Positions 9,054-17,487 of a DNA stretch of 64,000 nucleotides are shown piece after piece (position 1 is the first letter of the stretch; the number at the start of each line of letters is the position of its first letter). The DNA is taken from NCBI RefSeq assembly GCF_036014195.1, contig NZ_CP107918.1:3906001-3970000 (forward strand), read 5' to 3'. The notes beneath the pieces were generated by a model. That model was not told the origin of the DNA. It ran no database searches and worked only from the letters and a program-made list of their open reading frames with translations. The translations under genes and the position numbers were made by a program. This DNA comes from Streptomyces sp. NBC_00442 (GTDB lineage Bacteria > Actinomycetota > Actinomycetes > Streptomycetales > Streptomycetaceae).

Positions 9054-9980
9054 TCAGTCGGCCTTCAACTCCGGTGGATAAAGGAAGTAGTTGGCTGCCG
9101 ACGCGGCCTGCGCGCCCTCGTGGACGGCGGAGGTCACCTGGTGGGAGTGGAGCGCGGTGAGGTCGCCCGCCGCGTACACCCCGGGCACGGACGTCTTCTG
9201 CTCGGTGTCGACCACGACGTAGCCCGACTCCGCGAGATCCACGCCGAGTTGGCGGGCGAGGGCCGTCTCGGGCGTGGCGCCCTGGATGGAGAACAGCGAG
9301 TCCAGCGGGATGCGCAGGCCGCCCCGGGTGTGGATCGCCGTCAACAGCCCATCGGATCCCTCGGGTTCGGCGATCCGGTCGTGGATCACCCCGATGCCGG
9401 CCGCCGCGAGCCTGGCGCGGAACTTCAGGCTGATCTCGTCGTGTGCGCTGTTGGTGAGGAGCCGGACCCGGTCGGTCAGGCTGTGCAGCTGCATCGCTTC
9501 GCCGGCCGCCGCGTCGGTGTGCCCGACGACCAGGATGGAGCGGCCCCGGTTCTCGTAGCCGTCGCAGGTGATGCACCAGAACATGGAGCGGCCGACGTAC
9601 GACTCCCAGTGCGGGAAGTGCGGGAAGTGGTCGAGGACGCCGGTGGCGAGCACCAGGGTGCGGGCCCGCCACCTCAGGTCCTGCGCGTGCAGGGTGAAGC
9701 CGCGCTCCGCGTCGCCCTCGACGGCGGTCACCCGGTGGTGCGCGATCCGGGCGCGGGGATAGCGGGCGAGCTGCTCGGTGCCGAGCTTGCGCAGGTCGAC
9801 GGTGGGGATGCCGCCGGGGAAGCCCAGGTAGTTGTGGTTGACCTGGTGGTGGGTGGACCGGCCGTGGCCGGTGTCGAAGACGAGCACCTCGCGGTTGTAG
9901 CGCGCCAGGTACAGGGCGGCCGACAGGCCCGCGGGGCCGCCGCCCACGACGGCCGCGTCGACCGGCCGCGCCGCGCTCAT
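9054..9980 (-). CDS. Thioredoxin-reductase-like FAD/NAD(P) oxidoreductase
   Basis: 308 residues with the two-dinucleotide-fold layout: the FAD GxGxxG motif VVGGGPAGLSAAL at residue 11, a redox-active CxxC (WCITCDGYE, about residue 135) before the NAD(P) site, and a C-terminal FAD motif GVYAAGDLT (about residue 268). Members reduce thioredoxin-like or low-molecular-weight thiol partners or act as oxidases for dithiols. The start at 9980 overlaps the DsbA-like stop by 4 nt, so the DsbA-like protein is a plausible partner (inference). Confidence 0.88.
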   Translation of the reverse strand: MSAARPVDAAVVGGGPAGLSAALYLARYNREVLVFDTGHGRSTHHQVNHNYLGFPGGIPTVDLRKLGTEQLARYPRARIAHHRVTAVEGDAERGFTLHAQDLRWRARTLVLATGVLDHFPHFPHWESYVGRSMFWCITCDGYENRGRSILVVGHTDAAAGEAMQLHSLTDRVRLLTNSAHDEISLKFRARLAAAGIGVIHDRIAEPEGSDGLLTAIHTRGGLRIPLDSLFSIQGATPETALARQLGVDLAESGYVVVDTEQKTSVPGVYAAGDLTALHSHQVTSAVHEGAQAASAANYFLYPPELKAD

Positions 9981-10585
9981 CCCCGGCTCCGCTTCAGCTC
10001 GTAGAAGCCGGGCGTGGCCGCCATCAGGGTCAGGCCGTCCCACAGCCGCACCGCGTCCTGGCCGCGCGGCACGGGCGTCACCACCGGTCCGAAGAAGGCG
10101 GCCCGGCCGGTGCCGGCGGGGCCGTCGAGGGCGAGCACGGGCGTGCCGACGTCGTCGCCCGCCAGGGTCACGGCCGCCTTGTGCGAGGTGAGCAGCGCCT
10201 CCTCGTGGGCGTGGGAGACCAGCGCGTCGGCGAGGCGCGTGGGCAGGCCGCATTCGCGCAGGGCGGTCTCGACGGTGGTCCGGTCCTGCGGCAGGCCCCG
10301 CTCGTGGAAGCGCGTGCCGAGCGAGGTGTAGAGCGGGCCGAGCACGTCGTCGCCGTGTTCGACGCGGGCCGCGGCGCACACCCGGGCGGGCCCGCGGGCC
10401 TCGGCCAGCATCTGCCGGTAGGCGCGCGGCAGCCGGGGGTTGTCCTGGAGGACGGCCAGGCTCATCACGTGCCAGCGCACGGTCACCGGGCGCAGGCGGC
10501 GCACTTCGAGGATCCAGCGGGAGGTCTGCCAGGACCACGGGCAGATCGGGTCGAACCAGAAGTCGACGCTCGTCGAGTCGCTCAT
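9977..10585 (-). CDS. DsbA-family oxidoreductase, mycothiol-dependent nitroreductase type
   Basis: 202 residues, thioredoxin fold with helical insert. The N-terminal active site FWFDPICPWSW places a single Cys followed by Pro-Trp-Ser where classical members have CxxC. The following SRWILEVRRLRPVTVRWHVM matches the mycobacterial Rv2466c-like family. With only one Cys it would work through a mixed disulfide, probably with mycothiol (inference). It is translationally coupled on both sides, to the upstream phosphohexomutase-domain-like gene and the downstream flavoprotein gene. Confidence 0.85.
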   Translation of the reverse strand: MSDSTSVDFWFDPICPWSWQTSRWILEVRRLRPVTVRWHVMSLAVLQDNPRLPRAYRQMLAEARGPARVCAAARVEHGDDVLGPLYTSLGTRFHERGLPQDRTTVETALRECGLPTRLADALVSHAHEEALLTSHKAAVTLAGDDVGTPVLALDGPAGTGRAAFFGPVVTPVPRGQDAVRLWDGLTLMAATPGFYELKRSRG

Positions 10586-11049: not shown

Positions 11050-12510
11050 TCAGCCCGCCGGGCGCTGCCAGGTCGCGAGCCTGCGGACCGCGGCCAGCGG
11101 GATGGCGAGCCACTCGGGGCGGTTGCGGGCCTCGTACAGCGCCTCGTACACCGCCTTGTCGGCCTCGAAGGCGCGCAACAGCACGGGCCGCACCCGGGGG
11201 TCGGCACCGCCCGCCTCGGCGTAGCCGGCGCAGAACGCCCGCCGGTTGTGGACGGCCCACGCCGAGGCGCGGTGGGCCAGGCGGATGGACCGCGGATCGC
11301 GTGCGGGCTGCTCGCCGGGCGGCGCGCCGAGCACTTCGGCAAGCGCGTGGTGGCCCGCGTAGTCGAAGGAGCGCAGCATCGCGGCGACGTCGCGCAGCGC
11401 GGGCTGCGGACTGCGCCGTTCCTCGGGCGGGCGGCCGGGTTCGCCCTCGAAGTCGATGAGCACCCAGCCCCGTTCGCCGCGCAGCACCTGGCCGAGGTGG
11501 AGGTCGCCGTGGATGCGCTGGACGTCGAGCCCCTTGCCCGCGACCTCGGCGAGGTCGCGGTACATGGCCCGCAGCTGCCGCGCGTGGGGCAGCAGGGCGG
11601 GCACCTCGGCGAGTGCCGTCTCCAGGCGTACGCCCAGGGTGTCGGCGAGGCGCGTGGCACCGGCGGTGGTGAGGGCCTCGGTGCCGAGCTGTCCGGCGAG
11701 CGCGGAGTGCACCTCGGCGGTGGCGCGGCCGAGCGCGCGGGACTCCTCGGTGAACCCGCCGAGCGGCGAGACGGTGTCGCACGCGCCGGTCAGGCAGGCG
11801 CGGGCCTCGGCCACGGCGAGCGCCCAGCCCTCGCCGTGTGAGGGCACGAACTCCTGGAGGATGCCGAGGGTGATCTCGCCGTCGAGGGCGCCGGGCGCGG
11901 TGCGCAGCCAGCCAAGCGGTGCGGCGCTCGGCACGCTGCCGGCCCGGCGCAGGGCGCCGAGGAGCTCCAGTTCGGGGCTCGGCCCGTGCACCAGATGGCG
12001 CAGCACCTTGAAGATCATGCGGTCGCCGAAGGCGATGGAGGTGTTGGACTGCTCCCCGCCGAGCAGCCGGGCGGGCAGCCCGGCCGGGATGTCGGCGCCG
12101 GGCATGCGGTGGAACTCCACGGCCGCGTCGTGGCGTTCGGCGCCGAGGAGCTCGATGAGGCGGCCCATCAGCTCGGGGTCGGCGGTCGCGTCGTACAGGA
12201 CGCGGCCCGCGGTCGCGGTGCCGTGGCCGATCGTGGCGGCGCCGAGGTGACCGGGCAGCTCGGCGCGCACGCCGACCAGGAGCTGGTACCAGTCGTCGGG
12301 GCCGGTCCGTATGACGGTGTGGACGAGGGCGGGCTCGCCGGGCCACAGGACGTCGACGAGGACCGGCTCGGCCTCGGCGAGGGCGTGGTCCTTGCCGGCG
12401 AACCAGCGCTGGGCGCGGATCCAGGAGGGCAGCAGGCGGCGCAGGTCTGCCGCTATCCGCTCGCCCTCGGTCAACTCCGTGATGAACAGGCCCGGTTCGG
12501 TGCTGGTCAT
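11050..12510 (-). CDS. mak: Maltokinase
   Basis: 486 residues. The enzyme phosphorylates maltose with ATP to maltose-1-phosphate, the GlgE substrate. The N-terminal cap domain (RLLPSWIRAQRWFAGKDHAL, about residues 20-40) is diagnostic of Mak/Pep2. The kinase core shows RIHGDLHLGQVL (catalytic loop, about residue 325) and LIDFEGEPGRP (DFE metal site). Length matches the family (about 450-490). The ATG at 12510 overlaps the transposase-like stop as ATGA. No trehalose synthase gene, its usual fusion partner or neighbour, is in this window, so the maltose source must lie elsewhere. Confidence 0.93.
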   Translation of the reverse strand: MTSTEPGLFITELTEGERIAADLRRLLPSWIRAQRWFAGKDHALAEAEPVLVDVLWPGEPALVHTVIRTGPDDWYQLLVGVRAELPGHLGAATIGHGTATAGRVLYDATADPELMGRLIELLGAERHDAAVEFHRMPGADIPAGLPARLLGGEQSNTSIAFGDRMIFKVLRHLVHGPSPELELLGALRRAGSVPSAAPLGWLRTAPGALDGEITLGILQEFVPSHGEGWALAVAEARACLTGACDTVSPLGGFTEESRALGRATAEVHSALAGQLGTEALTTAGATRLADTLGVRLETALAEVPALLPHARQLRAMYRDLAEVAGKGLDVQRIHGDLHLGQVLRGERGWVLIDFEGEPGRPPEERRSPQPALRDVAAMLRSFDYAGHHALAEVLGAPPGEQPARDPRSIRLAHRASAWAVHNRRAFCAGYAEAGGADPRVRPVLLRAFEADKAVYEALYEARNRPEWLAIPLAAVRRLATWQRPAG

Positions 12511-13691
12511 GCGGCGCTTGCCTCCATGGTCCGCCGGTCGGGGACGGCCCGTACCGGCTGCGGGGCGGTGAGCACCCGGATGGCGTGGGCGAGCGACACC
12601 ATCGTCATGTGGTGGTGCCAGCCGCGGAAGGACCGTCCCTCGAAGTCGCGCAGGCCGAGCGGGTCGCCGTAGGCGGCGAGGTCGCGCTCGACGCGGCGGC
12701 TGAGCATCGCGGTGCGGTAGACGGTGCCCAGCTGGGACTGGGGCATGTTGGTGAGCCAGAACTCGTCGGGCGCCGGTCTTCCCGCGGTCGTCCACGCGCC
12801 GAGCAGGAGCAACTCCTGGCTCTCGGAGGGCGTGTGGCGGTCGCGCAGCCGGACCCGGGTGGCGCCGACCGAGGTGGCGCGCAGCGTGTCGGTGGTGTGG
12901 TCGAGCCATTCGACCGGCATCTGGTGGCGGCTCAGCGTCGCGGTGAGGCCGGGCCGCGCGGCGTGCGGTCCGGGATCGAGCGAGGTGTGCGAGGAGGCGG
13001 GGCTGACGCGCACCACGAAAGGAATCTGACGAGACGTCAAATCGCCGCACACGGGGTAGGGGTCGGTCTCGCGCAGGTCCATCACCACCGGTCGGCTGTG
13101 CAGGCTCCACTCATCGGCCATCGCCGCGAGCGAGCCGATCGCGCACTGCTCGGGCGGGCAGGCCCCCACGTCGTCGGGGATGGAGGCCCGCTCGCGCATG
13201 CCGGGCTCGTCGGTCCAGCACTCGGGCAGCACGAGCCGCCAGTCGACGGGGCAGCTGACACGGTCGGAAGCAAGCCACACGCCCATCGCCTGCTGACAGT
13301 TGACTACTCGTCCGTATTGCGAGACGAACTGCCGCTCCACGCCCACCGAATGACGGCCCACTTTGGTGATGACCAAAGGCTGGACGACCCAGGCGCGCGG
13401 CTGTGTCAGACCCTGGAAAAGGCGGGCCAGTTCACGGCGCACCGGCATCGCGTCCCACGGCGATTTGCTGATGAACTGGTAGAGACTCTGCTCCACGCTG
13501 CCCCGCCCGTTTCCGGCGAGTGCGCGCATCGTCTTCTTCCCGTCGACCGAGAGCAGGCCGCGTACGTACAAGTCGCCCCAGCGCCGCTGATCGGCGCGCG
13601 GAATGGAGGCGAGTGCCCGGTTGAGGAACTCGGTGACAATCTCCGGGGAAATCTCGTCGGGCAATTTCTGCTCAGGTACGGCGGCTACCAC
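12507..13691 (-). CDS. Degenerate IS701-type transposase-like protein (probably domesticated)
   Basis: 394 residues, GTG start. Homology to IS701/DDE-type transposases is clear from SLYQFISKSPWDAMPVRREL, GRHSVGVERQF, CPVDWRLVLPECWTD, RASIPDDVG and DFEGRSFRGWHHHM. The position that normally reads W-V-I-D-D-T-G, with the first catalytic Asp, here reads WVVQPLVITK, so that acid is lost. The GYG after the second Asp is also missing (VVMDLRETD). The C-terminal Glu region is altered (YGDPLGL). I see no terminal inverted repeats or target duplication. The stop overlaps the maltokinase start (ATGA), so expression is coupled. A DNA-binding or regulatory role is plausible. Confidence 0.8.
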   Translation of the reverse strand: MVAAVPEQKLPDEISPEIVTEFLNRALASIPRADQRRWGDLYVRGLLSVDGKKTMRALAGNGRGSVEQSLYQFISKSPWDAMPVRRELARLFQGLTQPRAWVVQPLVITKVGRHSVGVERQFVSQYGRVVNCQQAMGVWLASDRVSCPVDWRLVLPECWTDEPGMRERASIPDDVGACPPEQCAIGSLAAMADEWSLHSRPVVMDLRETDPYPVCGDLTSRQIPFVVRVSPASSHTSLDPGPHAARPGLTATLSRHQMPVEWLDHTTDTLRATSVGATRVRLRDRHTPSESQELLLLGAWTTAGRPAPDEFWLTNMPQSQLGTVYRTAMLSRRVERDLAAYGDPLGLRDFEGRSFRGWHHHMTMVSLAHAIRVLTAPQPVRAVPDRRTMEASAA

Positions 13692-14013: not shown

Positions 14014-14733
14014 TCAGGCGACCCGGTGCTCCAGCACCCGGTCGGGGGCGAGGTGGCCGAACAGGGCCGGCCAGTCGTCCGGGGCGGCGCCCGGCTCGCT
14101 GTATATCTCGAAGGTGCGGCCGGCGGCCTGCGGTGCGCGCAGCGCCTGGACGCAGGACTCGGCCACCGAGGCGCGCGAGACCCAGCCGTAGCCGCGGTCG
14201 TTCTGCTCCAGGCGGACCCGGTTGCCCACCGACTGGTCGTCGGTGAGCCAGCTCGGCCGGACCACGGTGTAGGGGAGACCTGACTCCCGTACCGCGTCCT
14301 CACCGCGCAGCCGCCAGTCCAGGAGCCGGCCGTAGGCGTTCATCGGATGCTCGCGGCGCGTCACGAATATCTGGCTGATCAGAACGAAGTGCGGGCGTGC
14401 GCCCTGCTCCGCGGCGGCCGCGAGGGCGTTGCGGACACCGTCGTGGACGGTGGACTCGGGCGAGTCCGGTCCGGTGTCGGCGGTGCCCGGCTCCACGCCG
14501 AAGACGATGGCCGAGCAGCCGCGCAGCGCGTCCGCGAGGGTGGGGGCGTGCCGCACGTCGGCGCGGTGCACCTCCACCTGGCGGGGCAGCGGTGCGGCGC
14601 CCCGCTCGGGGTCGCGGCTGACCACCCTGACGCGGGCGCCCAGTTCGTGCAGCCGCCGGGTCACCAGAGTGCCGGTCCTGCCCGCGCCTCCGATCACCGC
14701 GATGGGACCGTGCGGGGCAATGGGGCCGTGCAT
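14014..14733 (-). CDS. NAD(P)-binding NmrA-like / atypical SDR protein
   Basis: 239 residues. The Rossmann motif IAVIGGAGRTGTLVTRRL is at residue 10. Further atypical-SDR features are HRADVRH (Asp after strand 3), FVLISQIF, the YGRLLDWR helix in place of YxxxK, and PYTVVRPSWLTDD. These proteins bind NAD(P) and act as reductases or redox sensors; no substrate is evident. The ATG at 14733 has a GAGAGGAG site. It lies 37 bp after the nucleotidyltransferase gene, probably in the same operon. Confidence 0.83.
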   Translation of the reverse strand: MHGPIAPHGPIAVIGGAGRTGTLVTRRLHELGARVRVVSRDPERGAAPLPRQVEVHRADVRHAPTLADALRGCSAIVFGVEPGTADTGPDSPESTVHDGVRNALAAAAEQGARPHFVLISQIFVTRREHPMNAYGRLLDWRLRGEDAVRESGLPYTVVRPSWLTDDQSVGNRVRLEQNDRGYGWVSRASVAESCVQALRAPQAAGRTFEIYSEPGAAPDDWPALFGHLAPDRVLEHRVA

Positions 14734-14770
14734 GCTTCTCCTCTCCCGTGGCCGGGCGGCCGGCGTTGCG

Positions 14771-16117
14771 TCACGCCCAGCGCAGAATGTCGTCGGAGTT
14801 GCGCAGTTCCGTGTCCGCGGGCACCCCGGTGAGGGCGGGCACCCGCAGGCGCGGGTAGACGGTGATGCCGCTGAAGCGGAGACCGGGCCAGAGCACGGCC
14901 CCGTCGCCGATGGCGGCATGGTTCTCGAGACGGGCGGGCCGGCCGCGTTCGGAGTGGACCTCCGCCATGGGGCCGACGTAGCTGTCCGAGACCTCGGCGT
15001 ACGCGCCGATCACCGCGGACTCGCCGACGGCCGACCTGACGAGGGTGGCGCCCTCGCGGACCTCGGCCCCGTCGCCGATGTCCGCGTGCTCCAGGCGCAC
15101 CCCGTACCCGATCTCCACGTCCCGGCCGATGCGGACGCCGGGACCGATGACCACGGTCTTCTCGTCGAGCTTCTGCGCGAGGGTGGTGCCGGTCAGGTCG
15201 TCCTTGGTGCGCAGACTGCTGGGATGGATCCAGCGCCGCGCGCCGTCCGCCTCCGGGTCGGGGGCGTCCATCAGCCGGTTCATCTGTTCGTACGCGCCGT
15301 CCAGCACGAGCTGGACCGTCTCCAGATAGTCCGGCACGTTGCCGAGGTCGCCGAGGCGTCCGATGGTGTGCGCGGCCACGGGGTGGCCGCGCTCGACCAG
15401 CCAGGGCAGCAGGTCGCCGCCCCAGTCGAGCCGTTGGTGGGACTGCCGGAAGAGCTCCGGTTCCCGGGCGAGCAGCCGCAGCCGTCCGCAGTCGACCAGG
15501 TACATGCCGGCGTTGGTGGGCAGCGTGGTGCGCGGGTCGTGGGCCGTCGCGGGGAACAGCTCGTGCAGGTCGCCGGCGTGCGGCTTCTCGACGAAGCCCT
15601 GGACCAGGCCGTCGTTCCCGGTCCGCATGACGCCGTACTTGGCCGCGATCTCCTGAGCGGTGCGGGCCACCGATGCGACCGTCACCAGCGCCTCGCACGC
15701 CTCGTGTGCCGCGGTCATCGCGCCGAGGTCGAACTCGAAGAGCGAGTCGACGGGCAGCACCAGGGCGCGGCCCTGAAGATCCCACTGTTCGAGGTTGTGC
15801 AAAGTGGCCCCGGCGGAGCCGACGTTGTAGCGGTCGAAGCGCGATCGCGAGTAGCTGATCTCGACGCCGTAGCGTTCTCCGTGGCCGAGAAGGAGCTTGA
15901 TCTGATCGCGGTTCTCCAGGCCGTGGGTCACGATGTAGAAACGGCGGATTCCCTGTTCCCGGCAGGCTTCAAGTACCCATTCGATAAGGCTGCGTCCCAC
16001 GAAAGGAATGAGCGCCTTGCTGCGAATGTAGTCCGCCGACTTGAGGGTGATGGGCTTGGCCCGTTCTCCCCTGCCCCCGGCGAGGATGATGCCGACTGTT
16101 TCCTGATCCGTACTCAT
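14771..16117 (-). CDS. Sugar-1-phosphate nucleotidyltransferase with left-handed beta-helix
   Basis: 448 residues. The N-terminal nucleotidyltransferase domain (1-265) has the G-G-x-G-x-R loop in IILAGGRGERAKPIT, the Lys of SKALIPF, FVEKPHAG and TNAGMYLV. The C-terminal part (about 320-425) consists of hexapeptide-type repeats (IGPGVRIGRDVEIGYGVRLE). It would make an NDP-sugar from NTP and sugar-1-phosphate. GlgC-like ADP-glucose synthesis would suit the neighbouring glucan genes, but signature residues for a specific nucleotide are not conclusive. It begins 26 bp after the secreted peptide gene, hence probably one transcript. Confidence 0.83.
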   Translation of the reverse strand: MSTDQETVGIILAGGRGERAKPITLKSADYIRSKALIPFVGRSLIEWVLEACREQGIRRFYIVTHGLENRDQIKLLLGHGERYGVEISYSRSRFDRYNVGSAGATLHNLEQWDLQGRALVLPVDSLFEFDLGAMTAAHEACEALVTVASVARTAQEIAAKYGVMRTGNDGLVQGFVEKPHAGDLHELFPATAHDPRTTLPTNAGMYLVDCGRLRLLAREPELFRQSHQRLDWGGDLLPWLVERGHPVAAHTIGRLGDLGNVPDYLETVQLVLDGAYEQMNRLMDAPDPEADGARRWIHPSSLRTKDDLTGTTLAQKLDEKTVVIGPGVRIGRDVEIGYGVRLEHADIGDGAEVREGATLVRSAVGESAVIGAYAEVSDSYVGPMAEVHSERGRPARLENHAAIGDGAVLWPGLRFSGITVYPRLRVPALTGVPADTELRNSDDILRWA

Positions 16118-16143: not shown

Positions 16144-16356
16144 TCAGGTCCAGTTGGAGTCGTCCTCGGTGTTCACACCGCTGGGCGCACCGGCGTGAAT
16201 CGCGGTCCAGTTCGAGTCGTCGGGCGTTGCGCCGCCGCTCTGCTGGGCGGTGGAAGCAAAGGCGGTGCCGGCCGATACCTGAGTGCCGAACGCAATGGCG
16301 AGGGCCAGTGCGAGACCGGCGGTAATTCTCTGAACCATCGTCTGGTTGAAGTTCAT
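16144..16356 (-). CDS. Small secreted peptide with duplicated DDSNWT motif
   Basis: 70 residues from an ATG at 16356 with an excellent GGGGAGGC site. Residues 1-36 form a signal peptide (basic/polar start, hydrophobic ITAGLALALAIAF, then VSAGTAFA with a likely signal-peptidase site after AFA). The mature part of about 35 residues contains DDSNWT at positions 46-51 and again as the last six residues (65-70), separated by AIHAGAPSGVNTE. It has no Cys or Lys. It matches no family I recognise. It is divergent from a LuxR-type regulator across a palindrome and directly precedes the nucleotidyltransferase, suggesting a regulated, exported or processed peptide. Confidence 0.82.
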   Translation of the reverse strand: MNFNQTMVQRITAGLALALAIAFGTQVSAGTAFASTAQQSGGATPDDSNWTAIHAGAPSGVNTEDDSNWT

Positions 16357-16377
16357 GATTGCCTCCCCTATGGCTGA

Positions 16378-16394
16378 AAGACCTACCAGGTCTT
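16378..16394. promoter_or_regulatory. Palindromic operator candidate between peptide gene and LuxR gene
   Basis: AAGACCT-ACC-AGGTCTT is a perfect 7-bp dyad, extending to 9 bp with one mismatch. It is centred about 30 bp upstream of the peptide start. Further along the same 129-bp gap, GAAAAACC ... GGTTTTC (about 16416-16440) forms a second imperfect dyad, and TAGCAT at 16443-16448 could be the -10 of the LuxR gene. Binding by the adjacent LuxR protein is inferred. Confidence 0.65.
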
Positions 16395-16485
16395 CCGTCA
16401 GACGAAGCATGCCGCAGAAAAACCCCCCGGCCCGGTTTTCGCTAGCATCGTGATTGCGCAATGCAGAAACAAGAAGGGGAGGCAC

Positions 16486-17487
16486 ATGTGTAGAAACCCG
16501 GACATCAAGCCACAAGCCACTGTGATACGACCCTGCGATTGGGGGCTCGAGCGGTACCGGGAGGCTCTGGCGAAGGGTCCGATTGGTGGTGAAATTCCCG
16601 AATGCCTCCTGGAGTTGGGGCTGCTGCGGCCATTGGCTGAAACACCGGCCCTCTGGGCGGCGATCCCGCCGGACATCGCCACCAGCGAGCTCGTGCGCCC
16701 CATGGAGCGGGCGGTCCTGGTCCAGCAGCACACCATCGCGGCCATCCAGGAAGCGGTCTCGCACGCCGAGGACGTCTACCGCGAGGAGCACCGGGAGTCC
16801 GCGACCCCGCTCCGGCTGTTGCAGGGCGCCGACGTCATCAGTTCCGCGCTGCTCCAGGCCAGGGACGACTGCGTCTCGGAGATGCTGACCGCGCAGCCGG
16901 GCGGCTCGCGCGACCCGGAGGCGCTCGCGCGCACCCTGCCGCAGGAGATCGCCATGTCCCGGCGCGGCGTCAAGCAGCGCACCCTCTACCAGCACACCGT
17001 GCGCGCGCACGGGCCCACGCTCGCCTACATCGAGCAGGTCACGTCCGAGGGCGCCGAGGTGCGCACCCTCAACGAGCTCTTCGACCGGCTCATCGTCTTC
17101 GACCGCCGCGTCGCGCTGATCCCCGACCCCCGACACGAACTGAAGACCACGGCGCTCCTGATCGAACACCCCGCCGTGGTGCAGTACTTGGTGAAGGTCT
17201 TCGACCACGCCTGGGCACGGGCCGAGCCCGTCAGCAGGACCTCCGAGCAGGTGCGGCCCCGCCTGATGACCGACGAGACCCGGCGCACGGTGCTCCGGCT
17301 CATGGTGGAGGGGCACACGGACGCGGTCATCGGCACCCGGATCGGCATCAGCACCCGCACGGTGTCCACCCACATCAAGAAGGCGTCGGAGCTGCTCGGT
17401 GGCCGCAGCCGTGCCCATCTCGCCTATCTCCTGGCCCAGTCGGAGATATTGGAGGACGGCCCGGCGCGCGGCGCCGCGACCTCCTGA
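16486..17487 (+). CDS. LuxR-type regulator with N-terminal TrmB-like and PLD-like regions
   Basis: 333 residues. The ATG at 16486 has an AAGGGGAGG site. The N-terminal part (about 15-110) looks like a winged helix plus a coiled segment (IPECLLELGLLRPL ... LVQQHTIAAIQEAVSHAEDV). The middle (about 120-245) resembles the phospholipase-D-like effector fold found in such actinobacterial regulators. The C-terminal LuxR HTH is clear: LRLMVEGHTDAVIGTRIGIS followed by TRTVSTHIKKASELLG (about 265-310). It probably controls the divergent peptide operon through the intervening palindrome. There is no receiver domain, so control is not by classical phosphorylation. Confidence 0.85.
   Translation: MCRNPDIKPQATVIRPCDWGLERYREALAKGPIGGEIPECLLELGLLRPLAETPALWAAIPPDIATSELVRPMERAVLVQQHTIAAIQEAVSHAEDVYREEHRESATPLRLLQGADVISSALLQARDDCVSEMLTAQPGGSRDPEALARTLPQEIAMSRRGVKQRTLYQHTVRAHGPTLAYIEQVTSEGAEVRTLNELFDRLIVFDRRVALIPDPRHELKTTALLIEHPAVVQYLVKVFDHAWARAEPVSRTSEQVRPRLMTDETRRTVLRLMVEGHTDAVIGTRIGISTRTVSTHIKKASELLGGRSRAHLAYLLAQSEILEDGPARGAATS

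Follow-up and report, generated by a model that had tools for sequence, protein, structure and literature searches.

Two divergent genes are considered here, both lying in the window, by which we mean the whole 64,000-nucleotide stretch of Streptomyces DNA that was analysed (Table 1). One encodes a small putative secreted precursor and the other a regulator, with 129 bases between them. A previous inspection of the letters alone (the sequence-only reading) had described a 70-residue precursor of secreted type with a good ribosome binding site and an exact DDSNWT repeat, one copy internal and one at the C-terminus. All of this is borne out, the signal peptide by eye. The hexapeptide occupies residues 46–51 and 65–70, and its two copies are a single silent change apart (TCG versus TCC). 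Cleavage at a putative AFA/S site after the hydrophobic stretch, again placed by eye, would give a 36-residue mature part. The LuxR-type regulator that the same reading had placed divergently beside the precursor is indeed on the opposite strand and contains a GerE/LuxR domain (PF00196, Pfam E 2e-7). Its closest named relative found, from Streptomyces sp. NBC_00083, is 98% identical.

Behind the precursor, Pfam matches agree with the earlier assignment of a nucleotidyltransferase followed by a reductase. Each of these genes is present in 9 of the 14 related loci compared. To our knowledge neither is of a kind that modifies peptides, and no dedicated peptide-modification enzyme was recognised among the window neighbours run against Pfam. 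On the far side of the reductase, a DDE_5 transposase-like gene (12507–13691) recurs in 8 of 14 related loci compared, at 62–94% identity and with its order kept, pointing to a resident and perhaps domesticated gene rather than a recent insertion. Positions 9977–10585 encode an Rv2466c-like mycothiol-dependent nitroreductase (PF22234), a relative of which lies beside another receptor of the family (L174).

Table 1. Features of the precursor–regulator locus, in window coordinates.
Feature	Position	Strand	Basis or remark
NAD(P)-binding NmrA-like reductase, second gene after precursor	14014..14739	-	PF13460, PF05368
Nucleotidyltransferase with hexapeptide repeats, first gene after precursor	14771..16117	-	PF00483, PF00132
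Putative pheromone precursor	16144..16356	-	70 aa, ATG at 16356, stop 16144-16146; DDSNWT x2
Pentapeptide word 2, DSNWT, residues 66-70, extreme C-terminus	16147..16161	-	sequence; multi-copy relatives
Pentapeptide word 1, DSNWT, residues 47-51	16204..16218	-	boundaries inferred from multi-copy relatives
Signal-peptide-like N-terminus, residues 1-34, possible AFA/S cleavage	16255..16356	-	translation, by eye
Precursor ribosome binding site AGGGGAGG	16362..16369	-	sequence upstream of start
Perfect dyad AAGACCT-ACC-AGGTCTT (AAGACCTACCAGGTCTT)	16378..16394	.	exact
Candidate regulatory element GCTAGCATCGTGATTGCGCAATGC, window form of GCATCATGATC-type element	16441..16464	.	sequence comparison
Regulator (putative receptor), 333 aa: Cys-containing N-terminus, TrmB-like middle, C-terminal LuxR-type helix-turn-helix	16486..17487	+	GerE PF00196; profile match
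Codon of Met133, covarying position 143 (L137 numbering)	16882..16884	+	
Codon of Thr150, covarying position 160 (L137 numbering)	16933..16935	+	
Codon of Ile203, covarying position 213 (L137 numbering)	17092..17094	+	

The precursor family is reached through the regulator

By sequence search alone the precursor looks nearly unique, since a direct search returned one close relative (P0002, 87% identical, both DDSNWT copies kept) and the 391 other Streptomyces genomes gave one strong match (G304). It had no match to plasmids and, together with three multi-copy precursors, none to Pfam or NCBIfam. The earlier remark that no described family has the DDSNWT motif stands for the open-licence literature, Pfam and NCBIfam. 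The peptide itself leads to the two matches just named; the large family appeared only via the regulator, whose relatives were gathered and the adjoining DNA then read. The precursor at L062, for instance, has two DSNW words with spacers differing from those of the window.

Of the 120 regulator loci in the first sample, which include some near-duplicates, 43 had a divergent ORF with the strict motif [DE]x(0-2)Wx(0-2) at its end, for example DDSQWG, DDGWP, DSEWG, DPGWP or DSAWG. This motif closed 44 of 410 divergent ORFs versus none of 447 co-directional ORFs, L069 and L072 being left out of the strict-motif counts because of their short upstream sequence. A looser reading brought out multi-copy precursors beside regulators 37–40% identical to the window's. 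Eight multi-copy loci were read at 16–19 kb; all lay beside clpB, and seven with dnaK, grpE and hspR-like genes (assigned by eye). Loci of this dnaK type were then drawn, non-randomly, from the best-scoring matches, and the 139 obtained less 10 duplicates made 129 entries. A divergent precursor was found by rule in 127 of them. Of the other two, L276 was missed by the start rule and carries a precursor with seven DLSW words, and L072 duplicates L071 in truncated form and was dropped, so that a precursor is present at all 128 distinct dnaK-type loci. A match to the dnaK-type receptor (E<=1e-60) was detected in 327 of 384 Streptomyces genomes, 10 of these matches being weaker than 1e-100 and possibly other paralogues.

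Across the first sample as a whole, dnaK-type or not, precursors lay beside 75 of 115 distinct regulators, counting as present those of L040, L042, L068 and L070, which were chosen by eye. No recognisable precursor was seen beside the other 40, among them L069 with too little DNA; these regulators may be second receptors, may have distant precursors or may serve another role. Nor was there a precursor upstream of the second dnaK-locus regulator in the window's own genome. That genome uses DSNWT at the present locus and mainly DITW (4 of 5 words) at its dnaK-clpB locus.

Outside Streptomyces, precursors were found at six of the nine loci read in other Streptomycetaceae genera, with none at the remaining three, and at 12 of 15 loci in another bacterial family (f26), again with none at three. 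Four further families gave no precursor at 12 loci. The f26 words include DTSW, DTTW, DTGW and DTAW; the rule used there was loose, six of the 12 precursors repeating a word and six having one full word, and at L213 and L316 it also took ORFs, two in all, that resemble membrane proteins. In this family the two genes are arranged tail to tail, with the precursor behind the regulator and on the other strand, so their pairing cannot be ascribed to a single promoter region that they share.

The specificity of the repeated word was gauged on a control set of 6807 distinct ORFs of 40–150 aa from the collected loci, with the known precursors removed. Six contained at least two identical [DE]xxW words, and when checked singly all six were unlisted precursors beside family regulators; it was this control that brought the f26 precursors to light. 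At least one [DE]xxW word occurred in 327 of the 6807, and seven ended in [DE]xxWx.

Two pairs (L170 and L176) combine a receptor and a DSAWG precursor among genes that by eye encode non-ribosomal peptide synthetases, a setting that suggests cluster-situated control. At L059, the divergent ORF encodes 68 aa with a Cys-containing end, by eye a RiPP (lanthipeptide-like) precursor and not of the D-x-x-W type.

A pentapeptide word is largely kept within precursors

The 127 rule-found dnaK-type precursors carry between one and ten [DE]xxW words, seven of them a single word and 120 several. Words were identical in 754 of 790 pairs within precursors versus 8557 of 102950 pairs (8.3%) between precursors, and 107 of the 120 multi-copy precursors use a single word type. 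The main words number 29, among them DSGW, DPGW, EPSW, DITW and DSTW. Position by position, identity within precursors is 0.99 at D, 0.98 at x1, 0.96 at x2, 1.00 at W and 0.76 at W+1; just before the word it is 0.30 and just after it 0.29. Judged by comparison of the repeats, the repeated unit is the pentapeptide [D/E]-x-x-W-x, and the N-W-T singled out by the sequence-only reading is better taken as part of DSNWT. Single-copy precursors end one residue after W in 36 of 50 cases, although 39 of the 50 had been found with a pattern allowing just 0–2 residues after W, so that the C-terminal position lends mild support only; the word is not always C-terminal in this group.

Between repeats, core codon differences were synonymous in 701 cases and non-synonymous in 39, as compared with 669 and 2112 for the five spacer codons, all four being counts of pairs and not of independent events. 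Silent change in the core next to free change in the spacers indicates that the ORFs are translated and the word kept by selection. (L276 is left out of the word, codon and covariation statistics; the L292 precursor, read in part, is kept in the word and codon counts.) The same figures bear on the idea that these are cell-surface or antimicrobial repeats homogenised by DNA duplication, next to an ordinary local regulator. The number of repeats does vary widely, as it does in surface repeats, but fresh duplication does not explain identical words whose core codons differ silently while the spacers follow no such pattern, and receptor residues co-vary with the word, as set out below. We regard this explanation as extremely improbable.

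Receptor positions co-vary with the word

Changes of receptor residues and of the word were compared on a tree of the 127 dnaK-type receptors, with a null in which branches were drawn by length (20,000 draws). Four labels were tested over 188 columns each, two of them being repeated under the branch-length null, and the Bonferroni limit was 2.7e-4. At position 213 (L137 numbering throughout), 5 of 7 changes coincide with changes at x1, as good a result arising in 0 of 20,000 draws (p 5e-5), and at position 160, 8 of 15 changes coincide with those at x2 (p 1e-4). Position 143 coincides with x1 in 6 of 13 changes; it reaches p 7e-5 under a uniform null but 8e-4 under the branch-length null, where it misses the Bonferroni limit. 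At position 143, Met goes with Ser in 29 of 29 cases and Leu with Pro in 51 of 53. At position 160, Gly goes with Thr, Val, Ile or Lys in 26 of 28, and Ala with Gly, Ser or Ala in 85 of 90. Taken as putative residue pairings, both cross-tables make physical sense.

All three positions fall in the middle domain, which is remotely like the archaeal regulator TrmBL2. When co-change was pooled by domain, the middle domain stood out for x2 (0.170 versus 0.112–0.126 elsewhere) and was not above the rest for x1 (0.100, with 0.097–0.111 elsewhere). Held-out receptors were also compared at position 143. In the window group (50 receptors) Met accompanied Ser in 4 of 5, three of these four being the window and its near kin, and Leu accompanied Pro in 9 of 10; yet Leu also accompanied Ser, in 21 of 25, and one Asp word occurred with Met. 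In f26, Met accompanies both Ser words and none of the 10 Thr words. The position-143 rule thus transfers in part. Considering the co-variation as a whole, the receptor seems to read the word.

The resemblance to TrmBL2 comes from a receptor-family profile that matches TrmBL2 structures over profile positions 47–249 with E about 1e-3. In a Pfam survey of 65 receptors (E<=0.01; 23 families found), PF00196 was present in all 65, whereas PF11495 (TrmB) matched three with a best E of 0.0022, and there is thus no clear TrmB match in Pfam; the database names of P0023 and P0088 mention TrmB. Neither an autoinducer-binding nor a receiver domain was among the 23 families, and TPR repeats were absent from these as well as from the receptors of the window and L137. 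Cys17 and Cys40 of the window receptor are invariant or nearly so in the aligned receptors, and a metal or redox role is possible.

The earlier reading had left the fate of the peptide between processing, modification and signalling. A signalling peptide tied to the adjacent regulator is now strongly supported by comparison, while nothing in the window supports modification. A modified product, of RiPP type or another kind, for example Trp-modified and with several cores, would account for some features; the regulator would then merely control it or be fed back by it. Several spaced cores and a conserved Trp recall multi-core RiPPs, and a 105-aa protein resembling a Rieske region is encoded directly after the precursor in 128 of the 129 dnaK-type entries (the one lacking it is L072). 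The protein was found in none of 102 non-dnaK loci, however, and so does not belong to the general system. Pfam gave no match for it, and both cluster histidines of the Rieske motif are, by eye, Arg. The two genes behind the window precursor form no known peptide-modifying set, and co-variation between word and regulator is unexpected for a modified peptide. On this evidence we consider modification unlikely.

The Rieske-like protein (for example L164:11249-11581) resembles the N-terminal Rieske region of ring-hydroxylating dioxygenases, with E about 1e-3 to the alpha subunits. Its gene is on the same strand as the precursor in 68 of 68 loci with measured gaps and mostly overlaps the precursor stop by a few bases.

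Intergenic elements

The perfect dyad between the window genes had been reported from the sequence, and it is exact at 16378–16394. Allowing up to one mismatch, AAGACCTNNNAGGTCTT has no other match in the 7.73-Mb genome. As a site for the regulator it fares less well: of 25 related loci examined, it is exact in two, the window and its closest relative L061, and in none of the other 23, on which basis we rejected it as the operator of the family.

Other words are shared more broadly. CATGATC occurs in 12 of 24 distinct window-type intergenic regions (shuffle maximum 6), and CATCATGTTC in 56 of 64 dnaK-type intergenic regions (shuffle maximum 3), the maxima being for words of equal length under single-base shuffles only. 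This shared element is a candidate operator or promoter part. Searching the window's own genome with GCATCATGTTCCTG at up to one mismatch gave seven matches versus four for a reversed control pattern, and no regulon was found there by this search. Two of its matches were exact, one of them within the intergenic region of the dnaK-type locus and the other across the start of an ORF for a small secreted protein.

A proposed peptide-signalling model

We think it highly probable, from the comparisons above, that the precursor yields a processed pentapeptide pheromone and that the LuxR-type protein is its intracellular receptor, in a manner of working like that of RRNPPA systems but with an unrelated receptor. 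The precursor would be exported via its signal peptide, after which extracellular proteases would cut out DSNWT, two copies per window precursor and up to 10 in relatives; the unit is shown by comparison of the repeats. The pentapeptide would re-enter the cell, probably by an oligopeptide permease, and bind the TrmB-like middle domain of the regulator, as the covariation supports. Binding may then switch the LuxR-type DNA-binding domain, whose likely targets are, among others, the precursor gene and the operon that follows it. The D-x-x-W word tends to differ from one lineage to the next and between paralogous pairs.

Most of the precursors inspected start with basic residues, followed by a hydrophobic stretch and then small residues (by eye and by a hydropathy filter). 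By contrast, the precursors at L045, L046 and L052 are only 29–41 residues long and have no evident hydrophobic export segment, yet end in DSAWG. Such cases would fit a D-x-x-W peptide that is neither exported nor used in communication and acts directly on the LuxR protein of the cell that makes it, as co-factor or anti-regulator; the receptor, as a DNA-binding protein, is presumably cytoplasmic. The N-termini of the majority argue against a peptide confined to the cell, as does the need for cutting before a chain of up to 10 words could yield single pentapeptides, and we judge it quite unlikely.

The pheromone reading that we prefer has its closest counterparts in the RRNPPA systems of Bacillota (Rap, NprR, PlcR and PrgX). 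There too a small propeptide lies beside a receptor of 250–500 residues, and the short peptide is near the C-terminus or present in multiple copies; the propeptides there have an export signal, to which the N-termini of most precursors inspected here bear a likeness by eye. Tandemly duplicated Phr propeptides are among these systems, a single mature pheromone being repeated up to 8 times (PMC11343458). Such adjacency is seen here at 128 of 128 distinct dnaK-type loci and 12 of 15 f26 loci, but at 75 of 115 in the first sample. RRNPPA receptors are defined by TPR repeats, as stated in PMC10075063, whereas the D-x-x-W receptor lacks TPR and has a TrmB-like domain with a LuxR helix-turn-helix, its word is [D/E]xxWx and its hosts are actinomycetes.

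The TrmB/TrmBL2 sugar regulators share the remote profile match and differ in that our receptors have the extra LuxR helix-turn-helix, weak or no Pfam TrmB similarity and a paired peptide. LuxR/AHL receptors and NarL-type response regulators share the LuxR-type DNA-binding domain, but have the autoinducer-binding or receiver domain that the present receptors lack. Yeast alpha-factor precursors likewise contain identical pheromone copies with spacers; the system is eukaryotic, its pheromone is read by a membrane receptor, and no homology is claimed. In the gamma-butyrolactone system of Streptomyces the signal is a small molecule made by an enzyme and the receptor is of TetR type. Its likeness to the present pairs is in cell-to-cell signalling near antibiotic control, a subject touched on in PMC4748050. 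Actinomycetota signals more generally are typically enzyme-made small molecules, according to PMC10075063. No description of the D-x-x-W motif or of its pairing was found in the open-licence literature. The principle of peptide signalling is known, and the D-x-x-W signal and its receptor class appear not to be known yet.

We also lean towards a broader picture, a peptide language proper to Streptomyces and at least one other actinomycete family, made up of [D/E]-x1-x2-W-x pentapeptides released from precursors with up to 10 copies and read by a new receptor class, a TrmB-like domain joined to a LuxR helix-turn-helix, in which a few positions set the word for each lineage, with pairs at dnaK-clpB and in biosynthetic gene clusters through which peptides could switch antibiotic clusters. 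This last possibility follows from where the pairs lie, namely in such clusters and at dnaK-clpB, a region linked to antibiotic output through SCO3664. In S. coelicolor, SCO3664 is a regulator gene between hspR and clpB and one of the insertion targets at which actinorhodin was more than 50-fold (PMC6585502), which gives the sole hint at the direction of control. SCO3665 and SCO3666, numerically next to it, are listed as LuxR-family genes in PMC3282765, and PMC2631018 gives dnaK as SCO3671, hspR as SCO3668 and clpB as SCO3661. From position only, we infer that SCO3664–SCO3666 are genes of the dnaK-type family. If the model is right, linear peptide signals would be joined to LuxR-type receptors, providing a ligand for some such proteins, and on the broader picture an added five-residue peptide could turn antibiotic clusters on or off.

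Five regulators of the family stand in one row at G292:C7:228973-233896, and other genomes have two or more; a single precursor may serve several receptors.
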